From positions 1 through 26,032 of IMG/VR virus record IMGVR_UViG_3300034170_000056: DNA of 26,032 nt. One strand, 5' to 3'. Source of the DNA: a virus. The position numbers and the translations under genes were made by a program. Position 1 is the stretch's first letter; the number at the start of each line of letters is the position of its first letter. Below, piece by piece: positions 1-26,032 of this stretch. The notes beneath the pieces are model-generated. The model saw only the letters and a program-made list of their open reading frames with translations. It made no database searches and was not told the DNA's origin.

Positions 1-127
1 GAGAGTTCATAGCTTACATTGGATCCGGAGTTGCTGAGTGCGAGGTGAAATCTCATGTTCTTGTCGTCGACACCATAAGCGATAGGACCCATGCTGGCGA
101 CTTCAGTTCCAGCAGTGTCATACGCCT
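1..127. repeat. Terminal direct repeat, left copy (circle closure)
   Basis: These 127 bases are identical to 25906-26032. Joining the copies restores one uninterrupted tail-tip reading frame, so the true molecule is a circle (or circularly permuted or concatemeric DNA) of 25,905 bp. A length of exactly 127 is what an assembler with a 127-base k-mer leaves at the ends of a circular contig. It need not be a biological terminal repeat. Confidence 0.95.
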
Positions 128-1499
128 TAAGAGTTAGTGCCCCTCCAGTGTTGTAGAGGATGTCCCACCACGTGGCGGTTCCTGCGGTGGACACTCTCGC
201 CAGGATAGAGAGATCAGGCGTCGCAGCCGGTACATTAATCATGCATCGGAACTGGATGGAGCCCGTCGAAGTGTACGGATCTACTAGGGCATGGAGTCGG
301 CTGGACCCCAGAGTAACAACAGGAGAGCTACACACGAAGTCTGAATAGGCCGCGAATGTAGGAGTACCTTCGAACCGCATGACAGACTTGCCGACCACTG
401 CGGCTATGTTCTGTGCGTTCTTCTCGTCTTCGAGTGGCCAGTACATGACCAGGCTGGTGACGTTCGTCTGAGGGATAGAACGGCGCAGCGGTGACTGAAG
501 AGAGGAAGATCCGGCAGTCAGGCGACGGATGATTGAGGCCGCCTCGATAGGGGTACGCACGTCGCGCCCGGTCGTGTCCCAAGACTGCGGCCAGTTGGCG
601 ACCTCACCCCAGAATCGGTAGTGCCGGTTGTCCACGCCCACATCAGTGCCGGAGATCGTCCAGGTGTTACCAGCAGCGTCGGCGAAGGACAACACTCCAG
701 GTGTCTGGTCAGTGAAGACAGGATTGGCCACTTCCGTACCACCGAGGCCATTTATCACCTTGAGTGCATAAATCTCCATGGGGATGTTCGAGAACGTCCC
801 TAGAGTGTCTGTTCCATCGTAGATGCTGGTAGTGCTGGTGGCGTCGACTACAGTGTCGAACAGCACCCACGTGCCATCGATCGTCGTGTCGTCGCTGTAG
901 TAGAAACGTGCGGTGCGTCCACTGGATCCGTTGTTCACGTCTAGAGTTGCACGCACAGACTTGCGGCCTGTGATGTTCCCGGGGACGGGAACCACAGAGA
1001 GGATGTCATGCTGAGTTGTAGCATCGGACCACCAGTGAATGGCCAGCAGGCCATCCGCTGTGATGTAGAGACCATAACTGAGCTGCTTGTAGACACCCAG
1101 GTAGGTGGCGATGGTAGGGCGCCAGGTGGACGGCCTAACATCAGCCTGCAACTCGATGTCACCGGCGATGCTCAGAGCCGCTGAGTCGTCGGCTCGGAAT
1201 TGCCCAGAGGAGCCAGGTACGCGGAGACGGCCCGGACCGTTGGCCACGGACACTCGCAGCGGAGTGTTGCGGCCGATCATCCCGTAATAGGGGCCGACTG
1301 GGTTGCGCGGAGAGAATCGACCGTCCCTGTTGTTCATGGTGAGGCGGCACTTGGTCGGGTCGACCTGTCCTCCCTCATCCTTACGCCCCCGAGTGATGCC
1401 GATGTTGCTCGCGGTGTAGACGTAGGCAGAGATGTCCGCCCATTCACCGCTCAGGTACAGCTCCACCTTGATGTCGAGGATCGACTCGGGGAAGGACAC
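1..1499 (-). CDS. Tail-tip / minor tail protein, N-terminal part (residues 1-499; continues at 26032)
   Basis: This is the first part of a 1,317-residue protein that crosses the circle junction and ends at 23451. I chose GTG at 1499 because it lies 6 bases after the tape-measure stop, with GGGAG about 10 bases upstream. Residues 1-85 look like the N-terminal tail-hub domain common in actinophage minor tail proteins. Residues of about 85-260 form a beta-rich lectin-like (LamG/concanavalin type) domain, with a Trp-rich strand followed by a stretch reading VRATLDVNNG. A second LamG-like domain begins near residue 385 (MYWPLEDE). The protein follows the tape measure directly and no separate distal tail protein gene is visible, so it probably combines the distal-tail, hub and receptor-binding roles. 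Domain names rest on pattern recognition, not on a search. Confidence 0.88.
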   Translation of the reverse strand, partial: MSFPESILDIKVELYLSGEWADISAYVYTASNIGITRGRKDEGGQVDPTKCRLTMNNRDGRFSPRNPVGPYYGMIGRNTPLRVSVANGPGRLRVPGSSGQFRADDSAALSIAGDIELQADVRPSTWRPTIATYLGVYKQLSYGLYITADGLLAIHWWSDATTQHDILSVVPVPGNITGRKSVRATLDVNNGSSGRTARFYYSDDTTIDGTWVLFDTVVDATSTTSIYDGTDTLGTFSNIPMEIYALKVINGLGGTEVANPVFTDQTPGVLSFADAAGNTWTISGTDVGVDNRHYRFWGEVANWPQSWDTTGRDVRTPIEAASIIRRLTAGSSSLQSPLRRSIPQTNVTSLVMYWPLEDEKNAQNIAAVVGKSVMRFEGTPTFAAYSDFVCSSPVVTLGSSRLHALVDPYTSTGSIQFRCMINVPAATPDLSILARVSTAGTATWWDILYNTGGALTLKAYDTAGTEVASMGPIAYGVDDKNMRFHLALSNSGSNVSYEL

Positions 1500-1505
1500 G
1501 GTTAC

Positions 1506-2996
1506 TCACGCTCCCAGCGGGATACCATTGACGCGGAACACCTTGCGGATGAACACCATGAACTCGTCCTCGGCTCCCTCGAACCCGAAGGTGACACGAG
1601 TATCCGCTCCACCCCCACCGCTGCCCACCTGGCTGTCGGAGGCCGTGTGCACCATCGAGCCAGGAGCAAGGTCGATGTCCTCGGCCCCATACTCACCGAC
1701 CCGGATGCGCCCAGATCGCGGACCTCCGTTGGCCGCTCCGATGACGCCACCATGTGCCCTGCCCTCGATCGCATTCCTGTTGGTGCTAACGACGTTCACG
1801 TAGGCAGTAGTGCCGTTGATCTCCTGAAGACGCTGGTAGACACCGTTGATGACCCTGGTGGCGTTGTCAGTCGCGCTGATGGCGATCTGCACGCTCTTGG
1901 GAATACCGATGAGTTCGTTGGCCAGCTTCTGGGCCTCAGACTTGGTCATACCCATCTGAGTTGCAGCCCGGATGAACGCCTGACGTCCCTCGTCCATCTT
2001 CTTGCCGGCGTCAACAGCGCTACCACCGGAGTCGGTGATGGCCTTGCCAGCGTCGTTGGCCGCCTTGGCGATGCTGTCCAAGGCGGACTGGTTCTTGCGA
2101 CCCTTCTCGGTGTTGATGTCTAGGTTCTTGCCATTCTCCTGCACCGACTTGGTGGCGTCGGCCGTAGCCTGCGCCAGGTTGCGCAGGGAGTCACGCAGCG
2201 AGAGCTGCTGCCCAGAAGCCTCACGAGCCTTGTCGGACTCATCCTTGAGAGCCTTGGCGTGGTCCTCCGCTGCCTTCTTAGCCTTGTCCGTCTCGTCCTT
2301 GAGCTTCTTCTCCGAGTCAGCGGCATCCTCACCTGCCCCCACTAGATTCTTCATCCAGTTCCAGGCGCCGCTGATGGCCTTACCTGCCGCCTCGAACGCA
2401 GGGCCGAAGACGTTCTTTAGGAACTCTCCTACCTTCTGTAGCGCAGGTCCCAGTGTGCCCGTGATGAACTGCCCGATGACCTGGATCACCATGCGGAACG
2501 TCTCGCTGTGCTGGTAGGCGTAGATGAGACCAGCGGCGAGCGCAGCAATAGCGATGACCACGAGGGCGATGGGGTTGGCGCTCATGACGGCGTTCAGGAC
2601 ACCCTGCGCGGCTGCCATCACACCGGACGCAGCCGCCCCAGCAATAGTGGCAGCTCGGTGGGCCACTGATGACACGGTGGCGCGCACGCTGGCTGCCGAC
2701 TCCGCGTTCATCGCTGCCACCGCAGAGATCATAGGGACGATGAAGCTGACCATGCCGGACGCCAGGTCACCAATACCGGCGCCCAGCACGAACAGCTTGT
2801 CTCCGAGGGTGGCGGACGCCATCGAACCCTCGCCCATGAGTCCCTGAAACCCAGTCATGGTGTCCTGGACACCAGTGATGGTGTCCCGGAAGCCCATGGC
2901 GGCAGTGTCAACGGCGTCGAAGCCCTCTCGGGCTCGACCGAACCCTCCCTCGCTCTCGTTGACAGACCTGATGATGATGTCGACCACGCTAGGCAT
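1506..2996 (-). CDS. Tape measure protein
   Basis: The 496-residue protein sets tail length and lies in the tail lumen until DNA ejection. It has the usual composition: long Ala/Gly-rich helices, hydrophobic segments near residues 80-100 and 140-165 (for example NPIALVVIAIAALAAGLIYA), then a Lys/Asp/Glu-rich coiled coil at about 220-300 with repeated K-D-E-x-D-K units, and a Gly-rich C-terminus. At roughly 1.5 angstrom per residue this predicts a tail of about 75 nm, short for a siphovirus. The ATG at 2996 has GGAGG 8 bases upstream and overlaps the stop of the frameshifted chaperone (ATGCCTAG). The position between the chaperones and the tail-tip gene is the standard one. Confidence 0.93.
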   Translation of the reverse strand: MPSVVDIIIRSVNESEGGFGRAREGFDAVDTAAMGFRDTITGVQDTMTGFQGLMGEGSMASATLGDKLFVLGAGIGDLASGMVSFIVPMISAVAAMNAESAASVRATVSSVAHRAATIAGAAASGVMAAAQGVLNAVMSANPIALVVIAIAALAAGLIYAYQHSETFRMVIQVIGQFITGTLGPALQKVGEFLKNVFGPAFEAAGKAISGAWNWMKNLVGAGEDAADSEKKLKDETDKAKKAAEDHAKALKDESDKAREASGQQLSLRDSLRNLAQATADATKSVQENGKNLDINTEKGRKNQSALDSIAKAANDAGKAITDSGGSAVDAGKKMDEGRQAFIRAATQMGMTKSEAQKLANELIGIPKSVQIAISATDNATRVINGVYQRLQEINGTTAYVNVVSTNRNAIEGRAHGGVIGAANGGPRSGRIRVGEYGAEDIDLAPGSMVHTASDSQVGSGGGGADTRVTFGFEGAEDEFMVFIRKVFRVNGIPLGA

Positions 2997-3596
2997 CGAA
3001 GTCCACCTCCTCTCGATCTGCCATGGCTAGCCTCTCTATCGCTATCAACTGCAAGAGGCTTGCGTCTTCCTTCTCTACCTCGGACGGGAGCTTGTGGAAC
3101 CGATCGCAGAGACTAAGAATCAGCTCTGCGTGCTCAAGTTCTGCTGGCTTGGTGACGAGATTTCCATCGGAATCAAAGCCACCGCCGAAGTCGCGCCAGG
3201 CTTCGAGACCCGCCCTAAAGGGGCGTTCACGCCGACCACCTTCTCCATCCAGGTCTGGACGATGAACGCGGACAGGTTCGGGTCGACCCGCTGCATACCC
3301 TCCAGAGTGGGAGGGACCGGCTCCTTCACGATGGGGTCGGAGTCGGGAACCTCCTGTTCGAGGTTCCAGTCGACCAGGAAGGGGATGAACAGCTTGTAGA
3401 GGCTGACAGCGCGCTCCACCATCTCTTCGGTCGGGGCCGAGGTCCCGTTGAAGTTGGCGAACTGCGTCAGCTCCTTGGTGAAGGAGGTGAACTCCTTGAT
3501 GGACATGGAACGGGCTCGGAACTCCAGCCCGCAGTACTGGTCGTCCGGATCGGTGATGGAGAACCGAACATGCTTGAGAGTTGCATCGAATCCCAC
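2989..3596 (-). CDS. Tail assembly chaperone, -1 frameshift product (G-T type, about 202 aa)
   Basis: The shorter chaperone frame (3596-3120) contains the heptamer C CCT TTA at 3222-3216, a canonical X XXY YYZ slippery site. Slipping back one base moves ribosomes into a frame that stays open for 75 further codons (starting AGG GCG GGT at 3216) to a TAG at 2991-2989, which overlaps the tape-measure start. The extension is acidic and helical (contains LILSLCDRFHKLPSEVEKED). This is the lambda G/GT arrangement: the short form and the rarer long form wrap the tape measure and recruit tube protein. A weak CGAAG...CTTCG stem lies just downstream. The exact site is inferred, but an open frame filling the otherwise empty 120 bases before the tape measure is strong support. 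Confidence 0.85.
3120..3596 (-). CDS. Tail assembly chaperone, short form (G type, 158 aa)
   Basis: This is the unshifted product, starting at GTG 3596, four bases after the stop of the upstream tail-tube-like gene. It begins with VGFDATLKHVRF and contains a helical segment with KEFTSFTKELTQFANF near residues 33-48. It is of typical size for a G-type chaperone and sits directly before the tape measure. No catalytic motif is expected. Its last 31 residues lie downstream of the slippery heptamer and are replaced in the frameshifted form. The start is not certain because there is only a weak GGA upstream. In-frame codons extend further upstream through the neighbouring gene, so the coding start must lie near 3596. 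Confidence 0.85.
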   Translation of the reverse strand: MGFDATLKHVRFSITDPDDQYCGLEFRARSMSIKEFTSFTKELTQFANFNGTSAPTEEMVERAVSLYKLFIPFLVDWNLEQEVPDSDPIVKEPVPPTLEGMQRVDPNLSAFIVQTWMEKVVGVNAPLGRVSKPGATSAVALIPMEISSPSQQNLSTQS

Positions 3597-3600
3597 GGGA

Positions 3601-4002
3601 TCACGTCCAAGCCGGAGCGACGCCGTTGGAGAGGACACCCGGCACCGTCCAGTTGAGGTCGCCACCGTTGGTGCGGGCGATCTGGTAGTCGGTGAGCAGG
3701 CACTCGGCGGACATAGTCGCGCCGCCAGTGATGATGACCACCGTGCGGGAGACCCCACCCTGAATGTCCTTGAAGACGTCGTGCGCCAGGTTCGATCCGG
3801 GGTCAAACTGTCCCTTCAGCGAGAGGCTGAAGTCGGAGAGTAGCGCCAGACGCTCCATCGCTGACTTGTCCACGCCGGTGATGTCCGTTACCGCCTTGGG
3901 GGTGGCGAAGTTGAACTCCGTCACGTCCGTGCTGATGTCCTTGCCAGCACCGCTGGAGTTGTCGACGGTGACGGTGGACCCGAGACCACTGGTCTTAGCC
4001 AT
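3601..4002 (-). CDS. Second tail-tube-like protein (paralogue of 4455-5189)
   Basis: The 133-residue protein resembles the first half of the major tail protein upstream. Both start M-x-K-x-SGLG and carry a V-T-x-I-x-x-V/I-x-K-SAMERLA/IA segment (here DITGVDKSAMERLALL at about residues 39-54), followed by a similar beta-strand order ending in a W-x-x-P-G or W-G pattern. That points to the beta-sandwich tube fold. Two related tube-like genes side by side suggest either a second tube subunit, a terminator or adaptor ring, or a duplication in which one copy lost the C-terminal domain. The ATG at 4002 is 6 bases past the preceding stop. Confidence 0.75.
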   Translation of the reverse strand: MAKTSGLGSTVTVDNSSGAGKDISTDVTEFNFATPKAVTDITGVDKSAMERLALLSDFSLSLKGQFDPGSNLAHDVFKDIQGGVSRTVVIITGGATMSAECLLTDYQIARTNGGDLNWTVPGVLSNGVAPAWT

Positions 4003-4008
4003 GTGGGT

Positions 4009-4452
4009 TCATCCCTTCCTGAGTTCGTTGGCGATCTTGTCTGTGTGGGCGGAGAAGTCCTCCACCCAGTCCTCCGGCCGGGCGTGCACCCGGCCCTGGC
4101 CCGAGGGATTTCCCCTCCAGTCCCCGTCCCGCACGAGGTAGATCGAGGGCCGCTCGACCGGCACGCGGTGCAGGTGGCTCTCGAAGCACTCGGTGCCCGG
4201 GGCGAAGATGTAGACCGCCACAGCGCCGTCCTGGTGCCTGCTGGCCGGCGCCCTCCCGCTGGCCCGCACCGCCGCCTCCAGGTCGCTGCCGACCGGCACG
4301 CGGGTCGTCCATCCCCACCGGTGGGCCGGGCAGCCCACCTCCTCGCAGGTGGCCTGGCGGCTGTGCGTGGCCCGTGGGCGGACGATCTCGTAGGTCTTGT
4401 AGGCCCCGGGAGGGCCGACAGGGTCAACGCGGAACACACTCGGGCCGTTCAT
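4009..4452 (-). CDS. Conserved actinophage hypothetical protein in the tail module
   Basis: The 147-residue protein has unknown function. It starts at ATG 4452, with GGAGG 8 bases upstream. A GTG at 4458, overlapping the preceding stop, is possible but too close to that ribosome site. Residues 29-47 (RATHSRQATCEEVGCPAHR) hold a His and two Cys in the order H-x5-C-x4-C-x2-H, a possible metal site. A basic, Gly- and Arg-rich second half follows. Proteins of this look beside the tail-tube gene are familiar from Streptomyces-type phages, but I know no assigned role. It is sandwiched between the two tube-like genes, so a structural or assembly role in the tail is likely. Confidence 0.8.
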   Translation of the reverse strand: MNGPSVFRVDPVGPPGAYKTYEIVRPRATHSRQATCEEVGCPAHRWGWTTRVPVGSDLEAAVRASGRAPASRHQDGAVAVYIFAPGTECFESHLHRVPVERPSIYLVRDGDWRGNPSGQGRVHARPEDWVEDFSAHTDKIANELRKG

Positions 4453-4454
4453 GA

Positions 4455-5189
4455 TCACACCCTCCGCGCCGCAGCGTTCTTGACCAGCACGACGGCGAAC
4501 GTGGCCGTGGAGAACGTGCCCGAGGTCACGGCCCGGACGTACCGCCGCACGGTCGCTGTGGAGCTGGACGAGGCCAGGCGCTGGGCCCCGACCGCCGTGG
4601 CCGCGGTGAACGCGCCCCCGGTCAGTGCGGTGAACGAGGAGTCGTTCGCGCTGTCCTCCAGCGTCACGGTGACCGACGTCCCGGTGAACGCGAGCACCTG
4701 GAGGTACGCCTGCCAGCCGAACGTGGTGGAGGCCGTGAGGTCCACACTGGTGCCGTTGGTGGCCGAGGAGTCGGCGCGCTTGCCTGCCGTCAGTAGCGTG
4801 CCCCACTCCAGCCCGAAGCCATTCGCCACGGCCGACGTCTTGAGCGTGACCCCTCCGTCGTTGGCGCGGGTCGGGTCGTAGCCGATCTGCTTGGCGATCA
4901 TGCAGGCCGCGGGGCTGCCCAGGGTGGTACCCCGGCAGTACATGAGGTACTGGTCCGTGCTCGGAAGCGTCTTGAGCAGCGCGTGAACGTCAGCCGTCGG
5001 GTTGAAGTGCGTGACGTAGTCGATGCCGCCGTCGAGCTTTCCGGCGATCCGCTCCATGGCGCTCTTGTTGATGGCTGTCACGTCGAGCGTATCCACCGGA
5101 GTGGCGATCTTCGTCAGCGCGGAGACGTCGCCGCTAAAGTCGTAACCGGAGACGTAGAGATTGTCGCCCAGTCCAGACTGCTTGGTCAT
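4455..5189 (-). CDS. Major tail (tube) protein
   Basis: The 244-residue protein has two parts. Residues 1-128 form a tube-type domain (SGLG near the N-terminus, INKSAMERIAG at about 40-50, ending in LEWG near 128). Residues 135-244 form a Thr/Ser-rich beta domain (SSATNGTSVDLTAS onward), possibly an Ig-like surface decoration. Size, Ser/Thr/Ala-rich composition and position after the tail-completion genes and before the chaperones all fit a siphovirus tube subunit. The start is secure: ATG 5189 has GGGAGG 5 bases upstream in a 15-base intergenic gap. A 133-residue gene two genes downstream repeats the N-terminal domain. Confidence 0.85.
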   Translation of the reverse strand: MTKQSGLGDNLYVSGYDFSGDVSALTKIATPVDTLDVTAINKSAMERIAGKLDGGIDYVTHFNPTADVHALLKTLPSTDQYLMYCRGTTLGSPAACMIAKQIGYDPTRANDGGVTLKTSAVANGFGLEWGTLLTAGKRADSSATNGTSVDLTASTTFGWQAYLQVLAFTGTSVTVTLEDSANDSSFTALTGGAFTAATAVGAQRLASSSSTATVRRYVRAVTSGTFSTATFAVVLVKNAAARRV

Positions 5190-5208
5190 TGTGTCCTCCC
5201 TACGTAGG

Positions 5209-5673
5209 TTACGCGACCTGAGACCATAGGTCGTTGATGATGACCGGCATGACGATGTCCATGACCCGCTGGAGCTGCTTGCCCTGGCTGCCTAGGCTGA
5301 CGTAACCCGCCACCAGGGACAGTCCAGGTCCATCGGAACCTAGGAGATCAACGTTCTTGACGGAGTCGGAGAGCTGGAAGTCACCGGAGTATGCGGCCAT
5401 CAGCGTGATGGCGGCCTGGAGCATGTTCGGGTCGATCGCGTCCTCGGGCTGCTGGAGCATGTTCGTGTAGAGGCGCACACGGAACTCCAGATAGCCAGTG
5501 GTGGCCGCGAGACCTGACTTACCGCGTGCAGGCTTGAGAGTTTGCACCCACACAGCGCAGGTGAGTCCGTTGCCCGGTGGGCTCTTGGGCTCGTGGGTGT
5601 TCACCGAGTCGAAGAGGCCAGTGGCCGCAGCGTGTGAGGAGATGGCGTTGAGGATGTCCGTTACCCCGCTCAT
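5209..5673 (-). CDS. Tail terminator / tail completion protein
   Basis: The 154-residue protein starts MSGVTDILNAI. It shows the alternating helix-strand pattern and size of the ring protein that caps the tail tube and joins it to the neck. It contains a strand YLEFRVRLYTNML at about 66-78 and a hydrophobic C-terminal strand VMDIVMPVIINDLW. I prefer ATG 5673, which shares one base with the upstream stop (TGATG) and has GGAGG six bases upstream. The GTG at 5676 is only three bases from that ribosome site. Its place between the HK97 gp10-like gene and the major tail gene is the usual place for the terminator. The assignment is mainly positional. Confidence 0.72.
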   Translation of the reverse strand: MSGVTDILNAISSHAAATGLFDSVNTHEPKSPPGNGLTCAVWVQTLKPARGKSGLAATTGYLEFRVRLYTNMLQQPEDAIDPNMLQAAITLMAAYSGDFQLSDSVKNVDLLGSDGPGLSLVAGYVSLGSQGKQLQRVMDIVMPVIINDLWSQVA

Positions 5674-6056
5674 CACATACCTCCGATGCGCTGCTCGATG
5701 ACCTGCTCGGCGATCTTCTGTGACAACTGCTCGATCTCCGGTGCCATCTTACGGAAGGTGGAGTAACCCTTGAACCGAGAGGCGTTGTTCCTGCTCGACG
5801 TTCCTTCGAGCCATCCGCCGTAGACGATCCCACCGTCGGTGATGAGGTTCGTGTCGGACCTGCGCTCGGTCTGGATGGCTCCCTCATAGCGACCGGTCGG
5901 GTGCTGGAGCACGGAGTGCAGCCGTTGACGGATGAGGTTGACTCCCTGCTGACCTACCTCATCATTGATCTCGTCGATGGACCTCTCGATGTCATCTTCG
6001 AGAGACCCGTCGAAGAACGGACCGCTGGTCTTGATGTCGGTGCCAGCCACGGTCAC
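5673..6056 (-). CDS. HK97 gp10-like neck / tail-completion protein
   Basis: The 127-residue protein starts MTVAGTDIKTSGPFF at GTG 6056, overlapping the connector stop by four bases (GTGA). It shows the pattern of the HK97 gp10 family: an N-terminal helix (DDIERSIDEINDEVGQQG), then GRYEGAIQTERR, a short strand with GGIVYGGWLEG, and a C-terminal helix with KMAPEIEQLSQKIAEQVIEQ. Members act at the head-tail junction or tail completion. A longer frame extends upstream into the connector gene, but the overlapping start fits the style of this genome. Confidence 0.8.
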   Translation of the reverse strand: MTVAGTDIKTSGPFFDGSLEDDIERSIDEINDEVGQQGVNLIRQRLHSVLQHPTGRYEGAIQTERRSDTNLITDGGIVYGGWLEGTSSRNNASRFKGYSTFRKMAPEIEQLSQKIAEQVIEQRIGGM

Positions 6057-7102
6057 ACCGCCTTCATGCGGGCCTTGCGCCCGCACGTCTCGTAGGCGCG
6101 CTGCACCGCGGCGGCCAGGCCAGCTCCAGTGGCTGGGCGGGCGTTGTCACCCGAGCCGGTCTCGCGGCTGTAGCCGCTGCCCTCCTGGAGCACCTGGTCG
6201 AGCGCGAGGGCCACGCACAGCGAGGTGACGCCCTCGGCGAAGACCTGCCGGCCGATCCCCGCGGTGTCCAGGTGGCCTACCGCCTGGGTACCGAGCTGGC
6301 CCCGCTGCACCTGCAGCGTGCGCTTGGCGAGCACCGGCGCGGAGGCGGCGTGGGCAGCCAGGGTCGAACCGTCCCAGGCCCGCTTGACCACCAGGTACGC
6401 AGGCATGATCTCGACGACGAGCATCTTCTCGGAGCCGATGGCGATGACTTCGCCCTCGGCGTAATTGGTCGGGTCTCCGGACGGAGTGACCACATCGTCC
6501 GCCATCGACTCGCCCAGCACGTTGTCCGAGGTGTCGGTGGTGGAGAGCCACGCCTTCCCGGTGACGATCAGCTTCTCGGAGTCGATGGTGAGCAGATCGC
6601 CAACGCCGATCGTGCCGTCCGTCACGGCCAGGCTGGTGGCCGACGCGGAGATCGAGGAGACGAGTGTGCCCGCTGGAGTGGTGTTGTCGTCGTAGCCGTA
6701 GACCGCTTCGAGAGCGATGTCGTGCTGGTAGGTGTTGTTCTGGCCGAACGTGGAGTTGTCGGCGAGGTCCAGCTCGATGCGGTCGTAGGGCGGACCGGCC
6801 TCGTTCGGCTCCAGGAAGTAGTCCGTGGCGGGGATCGTCACACCACCGGACGACAGAGCGATGACCGAGATGACCTCGTTCTCGTCCAGCCACAGACGCC
6901 ACGGGGTCGTGGTCCGCGTCTGCTCGCTGGGCCAGTTGAAGTACCGCGTGGCCCGCGTCGGGTAGAACACGCGGTTGCACACGTTCTCGATCGTGCGGGA
7001 AGCAGCACCGATCGCTCGATCCACCTGCGCATCCGCGCGGGCAGTCTGCTTGATGTCAAGAGCGGACTTGACGTCCTCTCGACGGGCGTACCAGACGCTC
7101 AT
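6053..7102 (-). CDS. Head-tail connector (gp6-like adaptor) with inserted beta domain
   Basis: The 349-residue protein starts MSVWYARREDVKSALDI, typical of gp6-like adaptors that bind beneath the portal. Residues 1-110 and about 280-349 are the helical adaptor parts (ARADAQVDRAIGAASRTIEN at 22-41; C-terminal VQRAYETCGRK). Between them, about residues 145-265, lies a Thr/Ser/Val-rich domain with two similar units, each containing a G-D/E-x-I/L-x-I-x-S-E-K-hydrophobic pattern (IDSEKLIV and IGSEKMLV). Such an insertion makes it more than twice the usual adaptor length of about 100-150. ATG 7102 follows a 115-base intergenic region and starts the connector/tail block. Confidence 0.83.
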   Translation of the reverse strand: MSVWYARREDVKSALDIKQTARADAQVDRAIGAASRTIENVCNRVFYPTRATRYFNWPSEQTRTTTPWRLWLDENEVISVIALSSGGVTIPATDYFLEPNEAGPPYDRIELDLADNSTFGQNNTYQHDIALEAVYGYDDNTTPAGTLVSSISASATSLAVTDGTIGVGDLLTIDSEKLIVTGKAWLSTTDTSDNVLGESMADDVVTPSGDPTNYAEGEVIAIGSEKMLVVEIMPAYLVVKRAWDGSTLAAHAASAPVLAKRTLQVQRGQLGTQAVGHLDTAGIGRQVFAEGVTSLCVALALDQVLQEGSGYSRETGSGDNARPATGAGLAAAVQRAYETCGRKARMKAV

Positions 7103-7217
7103 TGGGTTCCCATTCCTCTGCCTTGCTTTCTGGCCTAGGGCGTACGCCCAGGTTGGGATAGAGCTTATTCAGTTAAGAACTGCTCACTCATTCACTGGGC
7201 TCAGTGTACGCGAACTG
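7103..7217. promoter_or_regulatory. Palindrome-rich intergenic region before the connector/tail block
   Basis: These 115 bases hold a perfect 12-base palindrome GGGCGTACGCCC (7138-7149), CAGTT-3-AACTG (7170-7182) and CACTG-4-CAGTG (7193-7206). On the minus strand a perfect TTGACA lies at 7221-7216, overlapping the stop of the upstream gene, but I find no convincing -10 at 16-18 bases. The gap separates the head-fibre gene from the connector in an otherwise tightly packed transcript, so an internal promoter, terminator or processing site is likely. Confidence 0.4.
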
Positions 7218-8816
7218 TCAATTACCGGAGAACGTGAGACCGTCCCAGGGGCAGAACAACTCACCGTGCGGGCCGACCCGCAGCGGCGTGCCGTCGTTGG
7301 GGCAGGCGACGAGTGGTGTGGGCACGGCGGCCAGCGCCTGCTCCTCGTGCAGGATCGAGAGCAGAGCATTCCACCCGCCGCGCCGGGCGCCGTCGGGCGT
7401 GCGGGTCGAGATCGCCAGCAGCGCGGGGAACGGGACGACCGCCAGCGCCCGGATCGCCTCCGGGAAGAGCGTGACCCCATAGGTGATCGTCGGCGCCGGG
7501 ATCGCGGTGGACGCCAGTACGGCCGAGGGCATCAGGTTGATCCCGACCTTGACCTGTGGTGTGGGCACGGAGGTGGAGGCCAGCACCCGGACGACAGCAA
7601 GAGTGACCCCGACGTGCAGCACCGGCACGGGCACGGACGCGGCCGGCGGGGCGATGGCGGCCGGGCTGAGCACGACCTCATTCGAGACGGCGGGCGTCGG
7701 GACCGCGGTCGAGCCAGAAACAGCGACGGCCGGCACGGTGGCCCCGGCGTGCGGGACCGGCGTCGGTACGGCAGCTGTGAGCAGGAGGGCGTTGACCGGA
7801 ACGACGATCATGATCGCCACAGCTGGCACGGGGAAGGTCGTGGCGCCCGCGACCGCCGTGGGGGAGACCCTGACCCCGTTCGCCACGACCGGGGCGGGGA
7901 CGGCGGTCGAGGCCAGCACGGCAGCCACCGCGAACAGAACTGAGGCGTGCGGCACAGGCGTAGGGACGCTCGTGGAGGCCAGGACCGCGGCCGGGCCCAC
8001 GTTCGTCCCGGCGCGCGTCGTCGGCGTCGCCACGGCGGTCGAGCCGGCCACGGCGGTCGCCGAGATGCCCACGGCGGCGTGCGGCGCCGGGGCAGGGACC
8101 GCGGTCGTCGCCTGCACCGCCACGGCGGTGAGCGAGGTGGATGCCCGGGTGGTCGGGGCGGCAACTGCCGTTGTGCAGGACACGGCGGTCGCCGTGATCG
8201 CCGCGTCGGTACCACCGTTGGTGACGACGATGTTGTCGAAGGTGCAGGCGTGAGCAACCGCCGAGTTTCCCGCTCCGATCGAGAGACCGCAGGCACCAGC
8301 CGTGGTGTACGTGGAGTCTGTGATGTCGACATCCCACGTACCTGGCTCTGTCCCTGTCCAGATGCGGGCCTTCAGGCTGTTGCCAACGACACGGAACCGG
8401 AACCCGTAGGTGGTGCTTCCACTGATAGTGAAGGTCTTGGAACCGATCGTCGTCCCGGAGAAACTGACAATCTTGGACACGGCCCATGTGGAACCCGAAG
8501 GCTCCAGCCCCATTGTGTAGCCGTTCTGGACGTCTACGCCGCTCATCTGACCACGTGCGAACACCATCGGGTAAGGCTCGTTGGCGTCGTTGGTGAAGGT
8601 TCCTGTGATCTCGACGTCTACCGGGTTGGTGATGTTCACAGCCCTGGTGGTACGCGCAGCACCCGAATAGCCACCGGCGGTGCCGGAACGCATCCGTCCG
8701 GCATTGGACTGGATGTCCGTTCCACCGCCGGTGCCAGTGCCATTCGTCGTCCAGTTGGAGGTAGACCATGCGTCGCCGTTGGTACCAGTGAACGTGTCGC
8801 TCATCAGCGTGGTCAT
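7218..8816 (-). CDS. Head-module repeat protein: lectin-like N-terminus, twelve 22-residue repeats, C-terminal zinc ribbon
   Basis: The 532-residue protein has three parts. Residues 1-205 are a beta-rich domain of LamG/laminin-like look (MTTLMSDTFTGTNG... to TFDNIVVTN). About 205-470 is a run of roughly twelve units near 22 residues, consensus x-V-x-P-x-A-V-x-A-S-T-A-V-P-T-P-x-x-x-A-G, likely a beta-stacked rod. About 470-532 is a compact C-terminus with GGWNALLSILHEE followed by CPNDG-x11-FCPWDG, a CX2-3D/CX2-3D-like pair that looks like a degenerate zinc ribbon. Small stand-alone proteins resembling this C-terminus occur at the same place in other actinophages (recollection, not searched). 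A head fibre or decoration that could bind carbohydrate is plausible. ATG 8816 has GGAGGAGG upstream. Confidence 0.8.
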   Translation of the reverse strand: MTTLMSDTFTGTNGDAWSTSNWTTNGTGTGGGTDIQSNAGRMRSGTAGGYSGAARTTRAVNITNPVDVEITGTFTNDANEPYPMVFARGQMSGVDVQNGYTMGLEPSGSTWAVSKIVSFSGTTIGSKTFTISGSTTYGFRFRVVGNSLKARIWTGTEPGTWDVDITDSTYTTAGACGLSIGAGNSAVAHACTFDNIVVTNGGTDAAITATAVSCTTAVAAPTTRASTSLTAVAVQATTAVPAPAPHAAVGISATAVAGSTAVATPTTRAGTNVGPAAVLASTSVPTPVPHASVLFAVAAVLASTAVPAPVVANGVRVSPTAVAGATTFPVPAVAIMIVVPVNALLLTAAVPTPVPHAGATVPAVAVSGSTAVPTPAVSNEVVLSPAAIAPPAASVPVPVLHVGVTLAVVRVLASTSVPTPQVKVGINLMPSAVLASTAIPAPTITYGVTLFPEAIRALAVVPFPALLAISTRTPDGARRGGWNALLSILHEEQALAAVPTPLVACPNDGTPLRVGPHGELFCPWDGLTFSGN

Positions 8817-17765: not shown

Positions 17766-17892
17766 TTCCCTGCGTTCCCTGCGTTCCCTGCGCTTGTTTT
17801 CAGATAACTCCACATCCCTTCCCTGTTCCCTGCCCCCCCTTTAGGGGCAGGGAAGGGGGAAGGACCCTTCAGGGGTACCTACCTTCCCTGCG
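17766..17892. repeat. Iteron-like TTCCCTG(CG) repeat cluster, candidate origin or packaging site
   Basis: TTCCCTG occurs at 17766, 17775 and 17784 (three tandem nine-base TTCCCTGCG units), then at 17819, 17826 and 17884, plus one inverted copy at 17848-17854. Between the two clusters lies the relatively AT-rich stretch at about 17794-17816. The cluster fills the 190-base gap between the RecA-like ATPase gene and the packaging block. Repeats of this kind beside a replication gene resemble iterons that bind an initiator. A terminase recognition site is the other candidate. Confidence 0.6.
17826..17854 (-). other. Stem-loop within the repeat cluster
   Basis: TTCCCTGCCCC (17826-17836) and GGGGCAGGGAA (17844-17854) form a perfect 11-base stem with a 7-base loop. 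The arms include a direct and the only inverted TTCCCTG copy. It lies 25 bases past the ATPase stop on the minus strand and could stop transcription, but no T tract follows, so a role in the origin or packaging site is as likely. Confidence 0.5.
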
Positions 17893-19189
17893 CCGTCTGG
17901 GCGTCCTCGACGATCACGACGAGCCCGGCGGGCGTGCTCAGCCCCAGCTCGGACAGCCAGCCGGGCCGTGCCTGCCTGCCGGCCACCTCCGGCCAGGTGA
18001 GCCGTCCCTCGGCCTCCAGCACCTCCAGGGCGGGCTTGAGGTGGCTGTTGTTGAAGGCGATGCCGTTCTTCTTCAGCACCTTGCCCAGCACGTTGGCCGA
18101 GGTGAACTGCCCACCGACCGCCGGGTCCTGGAGGAACTGGGCGATCTTCTCGGCCAGCATCCGCTCCGGGTCGTCCTTGGGCGCAGCGATGGTCATGGTG
18201 GCCCTGGTGCGTCCGCTGGCGGACGTGTCGTCCACCCAGAAGCTGCCCAGCAGGGTCCAGCCGTCGGAGACCTGTGCCTCCTCCTCGTTGCCCTTGAGGG
18301 CGACCATGCCGTCCCGGTCCTTGACCACGTGCACGCCGGAGCAGCCCTGCTTGCCCCGTCGGATCGGTGACTTGCCCGGCCGCAGCCGGAACCCGACGCC
18401 GTCCACCTCGGCCAGCCACGACACCGAGCCGAAGCCGTCCCGCTCCTCCTGGCGGTCGTGGCCCTTGGGCGCGTGCCCCAGGGAGAGCACCGCGGCGCCC
18501 TGCGCGGTGAAGGTGTTCACCAGCAGGTTCTTGTAGCCGCCGACGCCCATCGGGCTGACCGGATCCCAGCCGTAGGACGCGCAGGCGGCCAGGATGCCGT
18601 CCAGGATCACCAGGGACGGCTGTAGCGCCCCCGCCTGCTCAGTCAGCATCTCCAGGGTCAGGCGCCCGTCCAGCCAGTGCAGGTGCTCGAGTATCTGGGT
18701 GGCGGTCAGGCCCAGCTTCAGCAGCCGCTGGAGCGTGCCGGCGGGGGTGGCCTCCTCGAAATGGGCGTAGACCACGTCGTTCCCTGCCTGGATCTCGGCC
18801 ACCAGGTGCGCGGCAGCGAACAGGGACTTCCCGCTCTCGGTAGGGCCGATCATCGTGTGCCAGCGGCCTGGGTAGAGCATCTGCGCACCGTCCACGCGCC
18901 GCAGGCCCACCGAGGGAACTGGCGGGGCGTAGGTACCGTCCAGGTACGGGGTGAGGTCCAGCAGCCCGCCAGGGCCCGCTGCGCGCGCCCCTGCGGCCTT
19001 CTCCCGTCCGTACTCCCTGGCCCAGGCCTCTCGGGTCTGGCACACCGTGCAAGCGGCGTGCCGGTGGCCGTACTGCCCGGCGTCGGGGCAGAGCGGCTGC
19101 TCCCCGGACGTGGGGTCCTCCACGATGACCTCCACAGCGACCTCCGCCGTGCCGGCCAGCTCCTCGATCTCCTGCGGCAGCGCGCTCAT
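17879..19189 (-). CDS. RecA-like AAA ATPase, probable replicative helicase/loader
   Basis: The 436-residue protein starts at ATG 19189 in a four-base overlap with the primase stop. Seen: an N-terminal Cys/His cluster (C34, H42/H44, C47, C50; PLCPDAGQYGHRHAACTVC) that looks like a zinc finger; Walker A GPTESGKS at 115-122; a Walker B strand LVILDG at 193-198; and GYKNLLVNTF and VLSLGHAPKGHDR in the usual sensor region. The last 100 residues include a winged-helix-like helical segment. The fold is that of RecA/DnaB-type or RadA/AAA_25 ATPases. With a prim-pol encoded just upstream it probably unwinds or prepares DNA for phage replication. Whether it is a hexameric helicase cannot be told by eye. 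Confidence 0.85.
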   Translation of the reverse strand: MSALPQEIEELAGTAEVAVEVIVEDPTSGEQPLCPDAGQYGHRHAACTVCQTREAWAREYGREKAAGARAAGPGGLLDLTPYLDGTYAPPVPSVGLRRVDGAQMLYPGRWHTMIGPTESGKSLFAAAHLVAEIQAGNDVVYAHFEEATPAGTLQRLLKLGLTATQILEHLHWLDGRLTLEMLTEQAGALQPSLVILDGILAACASYGWDPVSPMGVGGYKNLLVNTFTAQGAAVLSLGHAPKGHDRQEERDGFGSVSWLAEVDGVGFRLRPGKSPIRRGKQGCSGVHVVKDRDGMVALKGNEEEAQVSDGWTLLGSFWVDDTSASGRTRATMTIAAPKDDPERMLAEKIAQFLQDPAVGGQFTSANVLGKVLKKNGIAFNNSHLKPALEVLEAEGRLTWPEVAGRQARPGWLSELGLSTPAGLVVIVEDAQTAQGR

Positions 19190-20004
19190 GGCCGTCCTCC
19201 TGCAACCCGCTTCGCGGCGCTGCTCATCGTGCGTGCGATCTCGACGTCGGTCAGGCCCACCCCGCGGGCGGCCTGTTCGAGCGGGGTGACGTCCAGCCCG
19301 TACTCCAGGGCGCGGCACACCTTGCGGAACAGGGTCGAGTTCCGCTCGCCCGGCACCGCTGCCCCGACCTCGGCCACCAGCGCCTCCAGCAGGCGCGTGG
19401 AGCCGCTGCCGGTGTGGTGTGGGGCCTGGGCGACGCGATGCTTCCGCTCTCCGACCAGCAGTCGGTCCAGGCGCTTCCAGTCCAGTGGTGCAGGCTCTCC
19501 GTTCGGCTCGGCCGTGGCGTACCGGTACCCACCCGAGTAGTCGGCCGTCTCGATATACGACGGAGGAGCGATCACGTAGCCACCCTCCCCGCGCAGGTCC
19601 ACGCCGTGCTTGGCGTAGGTGGCGTTGGGCATGTCCCCGCAGGTGGGGAAGTAGGCGTGACACCCGCCGGACGGTGTGATCACCCAGTGCACCACCCCGC
19701 TGAGCATCCCCATCGCGTCCAGCATCTTCAGCACTGAATAGCCGTTCGGGCGGCCGGGCTTGGCGTCGATGTCGAGCACGTCGAAGAGCACGCCGGTGGG
19801 CAGTCCGATCGCGTAGGGGTCGCTGGCCCACCAGCGTCTGATCCGCTCCGGATCGGTGCTGGCCTCGGTGCGCCACGACACCACCGGGTGCTTGACGTTG
19901 GATCCTTTCGGGCTGGCCGGGAACACCGGCTGGCCGGTCTCGGCGTAGGCCAGGGCAGCCGATCGCATCAGGGACGCGCCCTCTTCGTAGGTCAGCGCCG
20001 TCAC
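19186..20004 (-). CDS. Prim-pol type primase-polymerase
   Basis: The 272-residue protein has the AEP-superfamily prim-pol pattern (bifunctional DNA primase/polymerase, N-terminal). Seen: GLPTGVLFDVLDIDAKPG with the metal-binding Asp78 and Asp80, TPSGGCHAYF with His116 (109-119), and DLRGEGGYVIAPPS at 136-149. The C-terminal 70 residues are helical (ERNSTLFRKVCRALEYG), as in prim-pol relatives. In many mobile elements this domain is fused to a helicase. Here the ATPase is a separate gene coupled by four bases. It would synthesise primers, and perhaps extend DNA, for the phage. GTG 20004 overlaps the upstream stop by four bases. Confidence 0.9.
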   Translation of the reverse strand: MTALTYEEGASLMRSAALAYAETGQPVFPASPKGSNVKHPVVSWRTEASTDPERIRRWWASDPYAIGLPTGVLFDVLDIDAKPGRPNGYSVLKMLDAMGMLSGVVHWVITPSGGCHAYFPTCGDMPNATYAKHGVDLRGEGGYVIAPPSYIETADYSGGYRYATAEPNGEPAPLDWKRLDRLLVGERKHRVAQAPHHTGSGSTRLLEALVAEVGAAVPGERNSTLFRKVCRALEYGLDVTPLEQAARGVGLTDVEIARTMSSAAKRVAGGRP

Positions 20005-22221: not shown

Positions 22222-22536
22222 TCATCGGCCCGCCCCGCTGGGCTCGGTGCTGCTGCTGCTGGAGCCTACGCCGTACTGCCGGGTGGCCGGGGTTCCGACG
22301 AGCAGCAGCAGCCCCGCAGCGGTCGCCACGGCCCCGGTGTCGAGCGCGTTCAGCAGGGTGTCGGCCCAGGGCACGCCGGTCACGCCGCCGGCCACGATGA
22401 TGGCCTTCAGGACGACGCCGGCCGCGGTGGAGGAGTAGAGGATCCCGGCGTGCCTGAGCCAGGCCGGGCACCAGGCGGCGAACCGCGAGGCCCAGCTCGG
22501 GGCGCTGCTGGAGGTGGAGGTGTGCTCGCCGGCCAT
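22222..22536 (-). CDS. Holin candidate (104 aa, two membrane helices)
   Basis: ATG 22536 shares one base with the M15 peptidase stop (TGATG). The protein has a polar Ser/Thr-rich N-terminus, two hydrophobic helices (about 36-52, STAAGVVLKAIIVAGGV; and 68-82, GAVATAAGLLLLVGT), then a Ser-rich tail. Two helices, size about 100 residues and direct coupling to the cell-wall enzyme fit a class II holin, which would release the endolysin by forming membrane lesions. Two other small membrane proteins downstream are competitors for the role. Confidence 0.75.
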   Translation of the reverse strand: MAGEHTSTSSSAPSWASRFAAWCPAWLRHAGILYSSTAAGVVLKAIIVAGGVTGVPWADTLLNALDTGAVATAAGLLLLVGTPATRQYGVGSSSSSTEPSGAGR

Positions 22537-22949
22537 CAGTGCCACACCCCGCCGGGGCCGTACTCCCACGTCGTCGGGTGCGCCGGCGTGCCGCCGGTGG
22601 TGTTGTGCCCAGAGGCGTGCCTGACATCCACGTGGCGTACCAGCCTCCGGCCGCCGGCCGCGGTCTGCCAGCCGACACCGGAGAACACGCCCAGGGCCAC
22701 CACGGAGGCCAGCGAGACCCGCAGGTCGACGTCGGCCGCCGAGCCGTACCGGTGCTGGGAGTTGGCCGCCCCGCCGACCGCCTTGTTGTGCACCGGGCAG
22801 CGGTAACCGGACCGGACGACCAGCCCCGAGGAATAGCCCAGCGTCCGCAGGCGCTCCAGGCCCAGCACGAGGGCGGGCAGCGCCTTCGAGACGCGGCAGT
22901 GCGGGCACGCGAACTCGGCCGCGGTGAAGTGCGGGGACAGAGCGCCCAT
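22536..22949 (-). CDS. M15-family peptidase, endolysin
   Basis: The 137-residue protein has the zinc D,D-peptidase pattern of the M15 (VanY/Peptidase_M15_3) type: HFTAAEFACPHC at 7-18, the motif SGYRCPVHNKAVGG at 47-60, S-x-H-x-x-G-x-A-x-D with His66 and Asp73 as zinc ligands, and HVDVRH with His106 as the third ligand. It would cut the peptide part of peptidoglycan and so lyse the host. It is a bare catalytic domain: no cell-wall-binding domain and no signal peptide, so it needs a holin. ATG 22949 shares one base with the preceding stop (TGATG). Confidence 0.9.
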   Translation of the reverse strand: MGALSPHFTAAEFACPHCRVSKALPALVLGLERLRTLGYSSGLVVRSGYRCPVHNKAVGGAANSQHRYGSAADVDLRVSLASVVALGVFSGVGWQTAAGGRRLVRHVDVRHASGHNTTGGTPAHPTTWEYGPGGVWH

Positions 22950-23425
22950 CAGATATCGAACCTGAGAGGGATGATACGGATGGTTGGGTAGTCGACGTTC
23001 TGAGTTCCGGAAGCAGAGTCTCGGTACGCCTGCATGGTGAAGGTTGCCGCAGTAGCGGAGGCAGGCAGGGAATACGTGGCAGATGCGGCCACATGAAGCT
23101 GAGTAGAGATCGTAGACATGGGGACCTCACCCCACCCGACAGGTCCCCCTCCGGCTATACCTGCGGCGATGGTAGTAGATCCGGAGACCCTTGGGCAGAT
23201 ACGGGTCCTGATACCTCCGCCCACCGTGAACCACGCGCCGAACGTCACAAGACAGATCAGATTCGCTGTGGGGTGAGGGTTGGTGATCGAGGCAATGCAG
23301 GACGTCGTCGGGAGGTCGGTTGTGGTTGTGGCAGTGATGACGTTCGTACCTGCTCCGGTAACAGAGACGATGTCTGGAAGATCCCAGTCAACAGCATCGA
23401 CCTTGGCCCCAGCTCTGAGCGTCAT
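22949..23425 (-). CDS. Small tail-associated hypothetical protein (158 aa)
   Basis: The protein starts MTLRAGAKVDAVDWDLPDIV. It is beta-rich and high in Thr/Ser/Ala/Ile (TGAGTNVITATTTTDLPTT near 24-42), with two conserved-looking Cys segments and an ATFTMQAYRDS strand near the C-terminus. It looks like a virion surface or tail-fibre accessory protein of a type often found after the tail-tip gene in Streptomyces phages. It lies 25 bases after that gene's stop. ATG 23425 has AGGAG seven bases upstream. A role in host binding is likely but not shown. Confidence 0.78.
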   Translation of the reverse strand: MTLRAGAKVDAVDWDLPDIVSVTGAGTNVITATTTTDLPTTSCIASITNPHPTANLICLVTFGAWFTVGGGIRTRICPRVSGSTTIAAGIAGGGPVGWGEVPMSTISTQLHVAASATYSLPASATAATFTMQAYRDSASGTQNVDYPTIRIIPLRFDI

Positions 23426-23450: not shown

Positions 23451-26032
23451 TCACGGAAGAACAGAGTCCATCGCGGAGGCCCACGATGAGAAGGCGCTCA
23501 TTCCAGCCTGCCACCCGTAGCACTTCCTGATGCCGAACGTAGCGTAGATGTCAGCCATGTTAGTCTGCGAAGTGGATACTGACCAGAATCCACCAGAAAC
23601 ACTTGACTCGGTGGACATGCCTACGGACATCTTACCAACTGGGATACCAGCTGAGATGTATGCAGAGATGTTGCTCTTGGCAGCGGAGAGCGAGACACTG
23701 GCGTCGTAATACTGCTGGCCGATCATGTCGAGGGCACCTGCTGCCTCGCACGCCACTGCCCACCCACGGTACTCGGATTGATTGGATCCATTGGGCGCGA
23801 ATGTAATGGCGAAGTTAGTACCATAGAGGTTCTTGAGCTGAGTGGACAGATAGACGATGTCTGACTGGCTGTGTGTTCCGCCTTCGATGTCCCAGTCAAG
23901 TCCGTCGAGACCGGCCCCAGCACCTTCTAGCTGAGTCTTGATGTTAGCCACGCCCTGTAGGAACGTGGTGCGATCCGAGGACGGAACCGTGTAACCTCCG
24001 CCGCCGCCGACTGATAGGTGGATGCGCTTACTACCAGTTCGCCAGGCAGCGGCCCCGGAGAGGAATGCCGACTGGCCTTCCGGACCGTAGCCAACCAGAG
24101 TCAGAGAGCCGGTCCCATTGGCGAATGACAGGTTCATCACATTGACAGCCGCGTTGACACTTCCCCACGGAGTTGAGGGAGAGTCGGACCAGAGCATCTT
24201 GTACCCGGCGATGACCGTGGTAGGAAGGGCTCCAGCAGCACCTCCGCCCCCTGGGCCTCCGGTCTCTCCTCCGGTACCGGACCCTGTGTCGGACACCAGC
24301 GTGACGGACTGCCCGACGACAGCGTTGTTCAGTAGACAGGTGCGCGCCGAGCCATGACCTGACAGGACGTAGCCTCCGGAGGGGACGGAGGTTCCTGTAG
24401 TGGAGCCGGTGGTCTGCCGGTCGTTGATGGCGGTGATGACCCCGGAGGAGTTGACCGACACCTCGCAGCCGTACTGGTTGGTCTCGGTCACGGTGACTGG
24501 AGTCTGGTACAGGCAGAGCTGGTCGACCCCGCGGTAGCCGGGGTAGGGCGCGCCTGGGGGGTTGCTGGCGGCGGTGGGGTTGACGGAGTCGATCGTGCAC
24601 GAGCCGGAGGTGAACTGCGCCGCGTTGCTGGTGGCCGGGGTGCCCTCCTCCGGGGTCGTGGCCGCCCCTCCGAGCACGCGCGCGCCATGCAGGCCGTAGT
24701 AGACCGGGCGGAACAGGGCGACCCCCGCGCCGGCCACCTGTGCCTTCACGATCCCGTTCGCGGAGCGGGTCACGGTGAACGTCTGCGGGGATGAGGCTCC
24801 GCTGATCGCCGTGGCAGCGATGCGCTCGCCAGCCACCATGAGGTCAATGGGCATGTCCCCGCTGGCCGTCGTCCACAGCGGACCCGTCGAGGTGGCGACC
24901 GACAGCGACGTTGCTGTGCTGGTGGCGTCAGCGGCCAAGGTAGAGTAACCGGAGTCGTAGCGCGAATCTGTGTCGGAATAGGCAGCCACGTGGTACGGGC
25001 TTTCTGGCACACAGTTGAACGTTATGTCATGAGTCTTGGAGTTGATCGTCTCCGAGTAGCCCTGAACCAGCAGGGAAACATCATCCGGAGGCATCCACGC
25101 TGGGGAATCGGTGATGACCATGCGGTCACCGACGTCCAGAGAGAGAAGCTCGTAGATGAGTGTCGGAGTGACAGAGATGTACTTGTTCGACATCTTCACT
25201 CTGACGGACGGGTAGCGCGCCTCATCAACCGTTCCAAGGTGCAGCCTCCATCCCGCCTGCTGCTCGGCCGAGGAGTCACGATAGAGCGACAGAGACAGGG
25301 CCGTTGTGTATCGTCCTACGCCATCCGGGGGCTGCTGAATGCTGATCGGACCGTGCTCCTGCACAGCGCGGAAAGACGAACCGCTCTCCCGAGTAACAGT
25401 GACATCGTTGCGAACGTTCTGGTCGTCCTCCACCGGCTGGAAATCGTCCAGACATCCAGACGTGTAGCTCATCGTGCAGGTGGGGTCCTGGTTCACCAGC
25501 GAGGACAGGGAACGGAACTGTAGGCCGTAGGCGTCGCGAGGCTCATACAGCACACCATTGTCAGAGTTCGCTGCATCGCGGAGCAGGTTCACCAGCGTAT
25601 CGATCGTCTGATAGCCGACGTAGACGGTGTCCCCGTCCCCGCCACCTACCACCCTGAGAGCGACGCCCTCCTCGGTGCACAGCCGGTTGACCCTCGCAAC
25701 CGCCAGCTCACCGGCGTAGGCGTTGGTCTGCAAGTCCAGGTCGAAGATAGAGGTGATCGCGGACTCTACGGTGACATGCCCGACAGACACGCTGCCAAGA
25801 GCAGCCTTCACCGGGTTGAGATACACAGATGTAGCTACACCGATCTGCTTACTGCTGAGTGTTCCTCCGTTCGTGATTCCGGATTCGCGCCCAACCTCAA
25901 GAGTGGAGAGTTCATAGCTTACATTGGATCCGGAGTTGCTGAGTGCGAGGTGAAATCTCATGTTCTTGTCGTCGACACCATAAGCGATAGGACCCATGCT
26001 GGCGACTTCAGTTCCAGCAGTGTCATACGCCT
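23451..26032 (-). CDS. Tail-tip / minor tail protein, C-terminal part with GH18 chitinase-like domain
   Basis: This continues the frame from window position 1 and ends at TGA 23451; the full protein has 1,317 residues. After the second LamG-like domain comes the tail-hub domain (about 490-800; contains RNDVTVTRESG), a GC-richer Thr/Ser/Gly linker region with small beta domains (about 830-1040), then a GH18 domain at about 1063-1317. Key GH18 features: the S-x-G-G strand (LSVGGGG, near 1131), the catalytic D-G-x-D-x-D-x-E motif at 1167-1174 with Glu1174 as acid/base and Asp1172 present, and M-I-x-Q-Q-Y-Y-D near 1223-1231. All key residues are present, so an active beta-1,4-N-acetylglucosamine hydrolase is plausible. 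It would act at the virion tip on a host-surface glycan. Confidence 0.9.
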   Translation of the reverse strand, partial: AYDTAGTEVASMGPIAYGVDDKNMRFHLALSNSGSNVSYELSTLEVGRESGITNGGTLSSKQIGVATSVYLNPVKAALGSVSVGHVTVESAITSIFDLDLQTNAYAGELAVARVNRLCTEEGVALRVVGGGDGDTVYVGYQTIDTLVNLLRDAANSDNGVLYEPRDAYGLQFRSLSSLVNQDPTCTMSYTSGCLDDFQPVEDDQNVRNDVTVTRESGSSFRAVQEHGPISIQQPPDGVGRYTTALSLSLYRDSSAEQQAGWRLHLGTVDEARYPSVRVKMSNKYISVTPTLIYELLSLDVGDRMVITDSPAWMPPDDVSLLVQGYSETINSKTHDITFNCVPESPYHVAAYSDTDSRYDSGYSTLAADATSTATSLSVATSTGPLWTTASGDMPIDLMVAGERIAATAISGASSPQTFTVTRSANGIVKAQVAGAGVALFRPVYYGLHGARVLGGAATTPEEGTPATSNAAQFTSGSCTIDSVNPTAASNPPGAPYPGYRGVDQLCLYQTPVTVTETNQYGCEVSVNSSGVITAINDRQTTGSTTGTSVPSGGYVLSGHGSARTCLLNNAVVGQSVTLVSDTGSGTGGETGGPGGGGAAGALPTTVIAGYKMLWSDSPSTPWGSVNAAVNVMNLSFANGTGSLTLVGYGPEGQSAFLSGAAAWRTGSKRIHLSVGGGGGYTVPSSDRTTFLQGVANIKTQLEGAGAGLDGLDWDIEGGTHSQSDIVYLSTQLKNLYGTNFAITFAPNGSNQSEYRGWAVACEAAGALDMIGQQYYDASVSLSAAKSNISAYISAGIPVGKMSVGMSTESSVSGGFWSVSTSQTNMADIYATFGIRKCYGWQAGMSAFSSWASAMDSVLP
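25906..26032. repeat. Terminal direct repeat, right copy
   Basis: Identical to 1-127. Merging the two copies gives the 25,905-bp circle and an unbroken tail-tip gene. Confidence 0.95.

Follow-up and report, generated by a model that had tools for sequence, protein, structure and literature searches.

A GH18 domain at the C terminus of an actinophage tail-tip hub, a candidate surface-glycan depolymerase

Related depolymerases and GH18 enzymes

Little is known about the receptors and surface barriers that phages meet on Streptomyces and other soil actinobacteria. Virion-borne glycosidases have already been described, as has a GH18-like phage depolymerase. In the virion-associated depolymerases covered by one review (PMC5380687, whose text contains neither ‘chitinase’ nor ‘GH18’), a glycan hydrolase forms part of a tail protein at the end that contacts the receptor, and the well-known representatives are trimeric β-helix tailspikes. 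The GH18-like precedent is TP84_26 of Geobacillus phage TP-84, a capsule depolymerase whose activity has been shown (PMC10131341): a large protein, GH18-like in its C-terminal catalytic domain, that acts on the capsule of its Gram-positive host and is proposed to be partly tail-associated. Basilisk gp52, a Bacillus phage protein claimed as a virion chitinase, was considered as a further precedent and rejected, as it has FNIII similarity only and no chitinase domain (PMC6145125).

Compact GH18 barrels are known from cellular secreted enzymes such as class III plant chitinases of the hevamine type and ENGases of the Endo T type (1hvq, 4rl3, 7xmh and 4ac1), which carry QxY on strand 6. The Streptomyces-type GH18 chitinases (3ebv and our genome-survey loci L022–L038) carry MQYYN or VQDYN at this strand.

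The window analysed here is the whole of IMG/VR virus record IMGVR_UViG_3300034170_000056 (26,032 bases), in which a tail-tip hub protein ends in a GH18 domain. As in the reviewed depolymerases, the hydrolase is part of a tail protein, but the fold is a TIM barrel appended to a hub instead of a β-helix. The C-terminal placement recalls TP84_26, whose gene, however, lies in a lysis cluster with a holin and an endolysin, whereas the domain described here is encoded within the hub gene. The initial annotation of this DNA had called a virion chitinase of this kind unusual. This stands in part: no match was returned when the GH18 domain, a sister domain and the accompanying module were run by tblastn against 50,697 phage records, but the TP-84 enzyme precedes it (PMC10131341). 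The hub fusion in actinophages, the clade to which the domain belongs and the connection of this clade with a polysaccharide locus in bacteria all seem to be undescribed in the open-access subset of the literature that was searched. We favour, as on balance probable, the reading that the hub of this small, soil-type actinobacterial siphophage ends in a catalytically competent GH18 endo-β-N-acetylglucosaminidase that cuts a GlcNAc-containing host surface glycan during adsorption.

The hub gene and its C-terminal appendix

An exact 127-bp direct terminal repeat closes the record into a 25,905-bp circle (Table 1). This length is typical of an assembler k-mer; the record therefore probably represents a complete (permuted) genome that closes into a circle and, at 25.9 kb, is small for a siphophage. 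The minus strand encodes, in order, a terminase, a portal, a Clp-type head protease, the major capsid and major tail proteins, a tape measure and then a long open reading frame (ORF) that crosses the join. The capsid protein has its best match in Dagobah (51% across the whole length). For the terminase, Thermobifida phage P1312 comes first (59%), with Dagobah at 52%, and the core of the join-crossing protein is 31–41% identical to proteins of Dubu, phiSASD1, Dagobah and Chymera. Because hub, terminase and capsid thus resemble those of Streptomyces phages, the host is probably a Streptomyces-group actinobacterium.

Table 1. Positions of the features discussed, in window coordinates
Feature	Position	Strand	Remarks
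Direct terminal repeat, copy 1	1..127		Identical to 25906–26032
Hub gene, N-terminal part	1..1499	−	Residues 1–499 and the codon across the join; PHROG 5313, 2e-99
Tape-measure-like gene	1506..2996	−	Directly upstream of the hub
M15 peptidase-type endolysin	22536..22949	−	Recognisable lysin, encoded apart from the hub; no glycosidase
158-aa ORF after the hub	22949..23425	−	Start MTLRAGAKVDAVDW
Hub gene, C-terminal part	23451..26032	−	Continues from position 1 over the join; PHROG 5313, 7e-120
GH18 (β/α)8 domain	23454..24230	−	Residues 1059–1317; stop codon 23451–23453
W1298	23511..23513	−	Strand 8 Trp, which lines the −1 subsite in GH18 enzymes
GQQYYDA, strand 6 motif	23700..23720	−	Residues 1229–1235; Tyr-Asp pair of GH18 formed by Y1233 and D1234
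DGLDWDIE (DxxDxDxE), strand 4	23883..23906	−	Residues 1167–1174; E1174 is the proton donor
SVGG (S-x-G-G), strand 3 motif	24003..24014	−	Residues 1131–1134
‘GYVLSGH’ module and Gly/Pro-rich linker	24231..24689	−	Residues 906–1058 (module 906–1036)
Direct terminal repeat, copy 2	25906..26032		Repeats 1–127

On the circle, this frame continues through the join from a GTG start at 1499, giving the 1,317-residue tail-tip protein that the initial annotation had described. Both halves match PHROG 5313, and homologues in the Streptomyces phages Chymera, phiSASD1, Dubu, Dagobah and ShakeNBake likewise follow the tape measure, several of them annotated as minor tail proteins. The homologous hubs end well before the protein described here: Chymera residues 551–922, 922 being its last residue, align with hub residues 537–905, and phiSASD1 residues 968–1046 (of 1,051) align with hub residues 821–900. 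As the Streptomyces phage hubs end at the stretch matching hub residue ~905, residues 906–1317 are, by alignment, an appendix consisting of a module with the sequence GYVLSGH, a linker and the GH18 domain. The in-record hub had no NCBIfam match, and Pfam showed in it no CBM, ChBD, LysM or other wall-binding domain. The GC content of the GH18 part (57.8%, versus 59.5% for the hub core) bears no clear mark of recent transfer.

Fold, active site and distribution of the GH18 clade

The initial annotation had placed the GH18 domain at 23451–24230, and these coordinates are correct: they hold 259 codons and the stop, at the C terminus of the long ORF. The assignment was not trivial, because a single-sequence Pfam search is weak here: the window domain alone scores 22.8 bits against PF00704, below the curated cut-off of 29.6, and one relative (L006) scores exactly 29.6 bits. 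Scans of viral contigs and bacterial genomes yielded nine further domains at 30–47% identity. A profile built without the window domain recovers the window ORF at E=1e-75, and the nine-sequence profile matches GH18 chitinases and ENGases in the PDB at up to 3.9e-15, aligning with 3ebv over nearly the full length and with 4ac1 over a long stretch. An AlphaFold2 model of the domain is a TIM barrel (mean pLDDT 88.8, pTM 0.90), and GH18 proteins rank top in a Foldseek search with this model (E 1.9e-9, TMq about 0.7). Profile and modelled fold together confirm residues 1059–1317 as a complete GH18 domain.

The active-site motifs named in the initial annotation are present, with one amendment. The S-x-G-G strand is found as SVGG, and the numbering of DGLDWDIE is exact on the joined hub. 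The M-x-x-Q-x-Y motif is also there, as M-I-G-Q-Q-Y-Y-D at residues 1227–1234, but M1227 is not conserved and the tyrosine equivalent to the catalytic one is Y1233 rather than Y1232; the conserved core in the clade is GQQ[FY]YDA. All ten clade domains share D1172, E1174, Y1233, D1234 and W1298 without exception, and in alignment the catalytic residues coincide with those of bacterial GH18 chitinases. Since this core is invariant across 30–47% identity, the domain is likely to be catalytically active; by alignment its residue pattern is that of an enzyme, unlike that of a decayed GH18 lectin. The fold matches and the alignment with GH18 chitinases would also put E1174 in the pocket. In the relative L012, two secondary motif positions are changed (D1167 to G and D1170 to N), which suggests that the members of the clade need not all be equally active.

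The domain agrees with the compact cellular barrels 1hvq, 4rl3, 7xmh and 4ac1 in the residues of strands 4, 6 and 8, at only 12–18% identity in fold alignments. On strand 6 the phage clade has Q-[FY]-Y-D, where hevamine has Tyr-Asn. Family and catalytic residues are common to the Streptomyces-type chitinases as well, but these score 42–58 bits against the phage-clade profile, compared with 324–388 for clade members, and in a tree, 100/100 support separates the clade (10 rows) from the actinobacterial chitinases of the survey. TP84_26 is retrieved by Foldseek with the domain model at rank 41 (E 2.5e-3); it is structurally distant (TM 0.53, 11% identity) and nearer to YdhD-type GH18.

The clade is rare in bacteria. 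One Nocardioidaceae MAG has two members, encoded by neighbouring genes, and another Actinomycetota MAG has a single one. An initial profile search of genome contigs with a two-sequence profile gave no match. Among 295 genomes of the order to which the Nocardioidaceae MAG belongs, the clade was found in that MAG only, and among 396 Actinomycetota, ordinary GH18 chitinases were the sole additions; both surveys scored only some candidates per genome, so the rarity is approximate. The only clearly cellular members are the two Nocardioidaceae proteins, which have signal-peptide-like starts by eye; one of them has two copies of the GYVLSGH module ahead of its GH18 domain. On the contig that carries them are genes for a sugar epimerase, a nucleotidyltransferase and glycosyltransferases of families GT1 and GT2 and also, by eye, one for a Wzz-like membrane protein, on the basis of which we regard it as a polysaccharide-synthesis locus. 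No recognised chitin-use genes adjoin these two GH18 genes (L006 2664–5871, +, and L039).

The GYVLSGH module itself has no Pfam family, and its AlphaFold2 model is moderate (mean pLDDT 74.6); the best Foldseek match is 6ozd, an exported Burkholderia protein, part of which it resembles (E 2e-6). Similar sequences presumably occur in phosphodiester-glycosidase proteins. Module and GH18 domain travel together. They are part of the hub in L009, which is 1,572 aa long, and in L010, where the hub has at least 2,930 aa; in L008, L012 and L003 they occur in separate genes, those of L003 and L012 being close to tape-measure genes. In L005, a GH18 domain without the module is fused to a phrog_837 minor tail protein. 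The fusions in the independent contigs L009 and L010, that in L005 and the proximity to the tape measure in L003 and L012 count in favour of the preferred reading.

By its domain content, the L010 hub is a multi-enzyme phage tail tip: a phytase (PF02333, 4e-52) splits its GYVLSGH module, and an apiosidase-like domain (PF13204, 3e-52), accompanied by a Collagen_bind_2 domain, lies between the module and the terminal GH18 domain. This giant hub, on IMGVR_UViG_3300045391_002835, occupies 3–8795 (+) in an open frame of 3,146. The stretch between phytase and apiosidase looked barrel-like by eye, but Pfam gave no match there. In L008, the stand-alone GH18 gene is preceded by a 1,674-aa ORF (2295–7319, +) with a GH26 domain above the Pfam cut-off and a weak laminin-G match.

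Proposed role and alternative readings

We propose that the GH18 domain would be carried at the distal tail tip by the GYVLSGH module and a flexible linker, and that at adsorption it would hydrolyse a GlcNAc-containing surface glycan, thereby clearing a path to the cell wall. By analogy with GH18 enzymes, hydrolysis of β-1,4 GlcNAc linkages would be retaining and substrate-assisted, with E1174 as acid/base and with D1172 and Y1233 positioning the 2-acetamido group. A GlcNAc-containing polymer of the host surface was among the substrates suggested in the initial annotation and is kept here as the lead candidate, most likely an exopolysaccharide or capsule-like polymer. We prefer such a polymer for several reasons. 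The enzymes in related tail proteins target glycans or phosphates, not peptidoglycan, and the GH26 encoded before the L008 GH18 gene and the apiosidase and phytase of L010 would fit a depolymerase pattern. The cellular relatives sit in a polysaccharide locus, much as glycosidases are encoded in exopolysaccharide operons; LysM, wall-binding and chitin-binding modules were looked for in the hub and not found; and a precedent of shown activity exists in the TP-84 depolymerase (PMC10131341). The choice of an exopolysaccharide draws on one Nocardioidaceae MAG contig and is correspondingly provisional.

The main rival is a tail-associated peptidoglycan lysin, in which the GH18 domain would cut GlcNAc-MurNAc linkages so that tail tube and DNA pass through the thick actinobacterial wall. 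Tail lysins of Gram-positive phages are often located on the hub, GH18 includes spore-cortex and peptidoglycan N-acetylglucosaminidases, and the endolysin of this phage is an M15 enzyme without a glycosidase, an activity not seen elsewhere in the genome. Against this, Pfam detected neither LysM nor another wall-binding domain in the in-record hub, relatives carry at the same position a phytase and an apiosidase, neither of which acts on peptidoglycan, and the cellular members lie in a polysaccharide-synthesis locus; we consider the lysin unlikely, though a serious contender. A non-catalytic lectin with a GH18 fold, comparable to xylanase inhibitors and chi-lectins and attaching to a GlcNAc receptor, is less probable still: the best single-sequence PDB matches and several of the Foldseek matches are GH18-fold inhibitors or lectins, but GH18 lectins typically lack the catalytic acid or its Asp, whereas D1172, E1174, Y1233 and D1234 are invariant here. 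That the GH18 family also includes peptidoglycan-active and non-catalytic members was counted against the preferred depolymerase reading.

The weakest of the catalytic readings, which we hold to be very improbable, is a chitin-directed enzyme with which virions would bind or dig through fungal or arthropod chitin where the host grows. The fold is chitinase-like, and Streptomyces are major degraders of chitin (PMC12370203). However, Pfam detected no chitin-binding module in the in-record hub, the domain, of only 259 aa, has no large insertion between strands that would form a deep cleft for chitin, and its clade is separate from the surveyed Streptomyces-type chitinases. The suggestion in the initial annotation that the phage might move along chitin finds no support, as no chitin-binding module was detected, the clade is separate from ordinary actinobacterial chitinases, and the cellular members whose surroundings are known sit in a polysaccharide locus. 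An artefact, either a chimeric assembly or a chance motif, might have been suspected because the hub extends over the contig ends and the Pfam score is under the cut-off. It is in practice refuted: repeat and reading frame fit exactly at the join, the independent contig L009 carries the same hub–GH18 fusion in an alignment that is continuous through the join (hub 10–809), and neither the predicted fold nor the profile match would be expected of a chance motif. The central claim of the initial annotation, that a tail-tip hub protein ends in a GH18 domain whose active site is intact, is thus upheld by profile, fold and alignment evidence and by the position of the gene directly after the tape measure.

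The combination of an intact hub glycosidase and its relatives in a host polysaccharide locus directs attention to a concrete, testable surface glycan, and the domain, if active, would be a tool to read actinobacterial surface glycans. Genes tallied as ‘chitinase’ auxiliary metabolic genes in soil viromes may include tail-borne entry enzymes. A broader and more doubtful proposal, which we offer tentatively, is that this unrecognised GH18 clade, common to actinophage tail tips and to secreted proteins of an actinobacterial exopolysaccharide locus, is a depolymerase of the cognate polymer: phages might have taken the glycan-processing enzyme of the host, together with its module, and mounted it at interchangeable hub sites, alongside GH26, apiosidase or phytase in related phages.

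Three further ORFs on the minus strand deserve mention. One of 532 aa (7218–8816), between the capsid and tail genes, and one of 665 aa (17879–19876), upstream of the terminase, have no Pfam or PHROG match. The 158-aa ORF that follows the hub has no family match and is probably a small minor tail protein; a sequence with the start MVLRAGSKFDATDF, similar by eye to its own start, follows the hub in L002 and L010.
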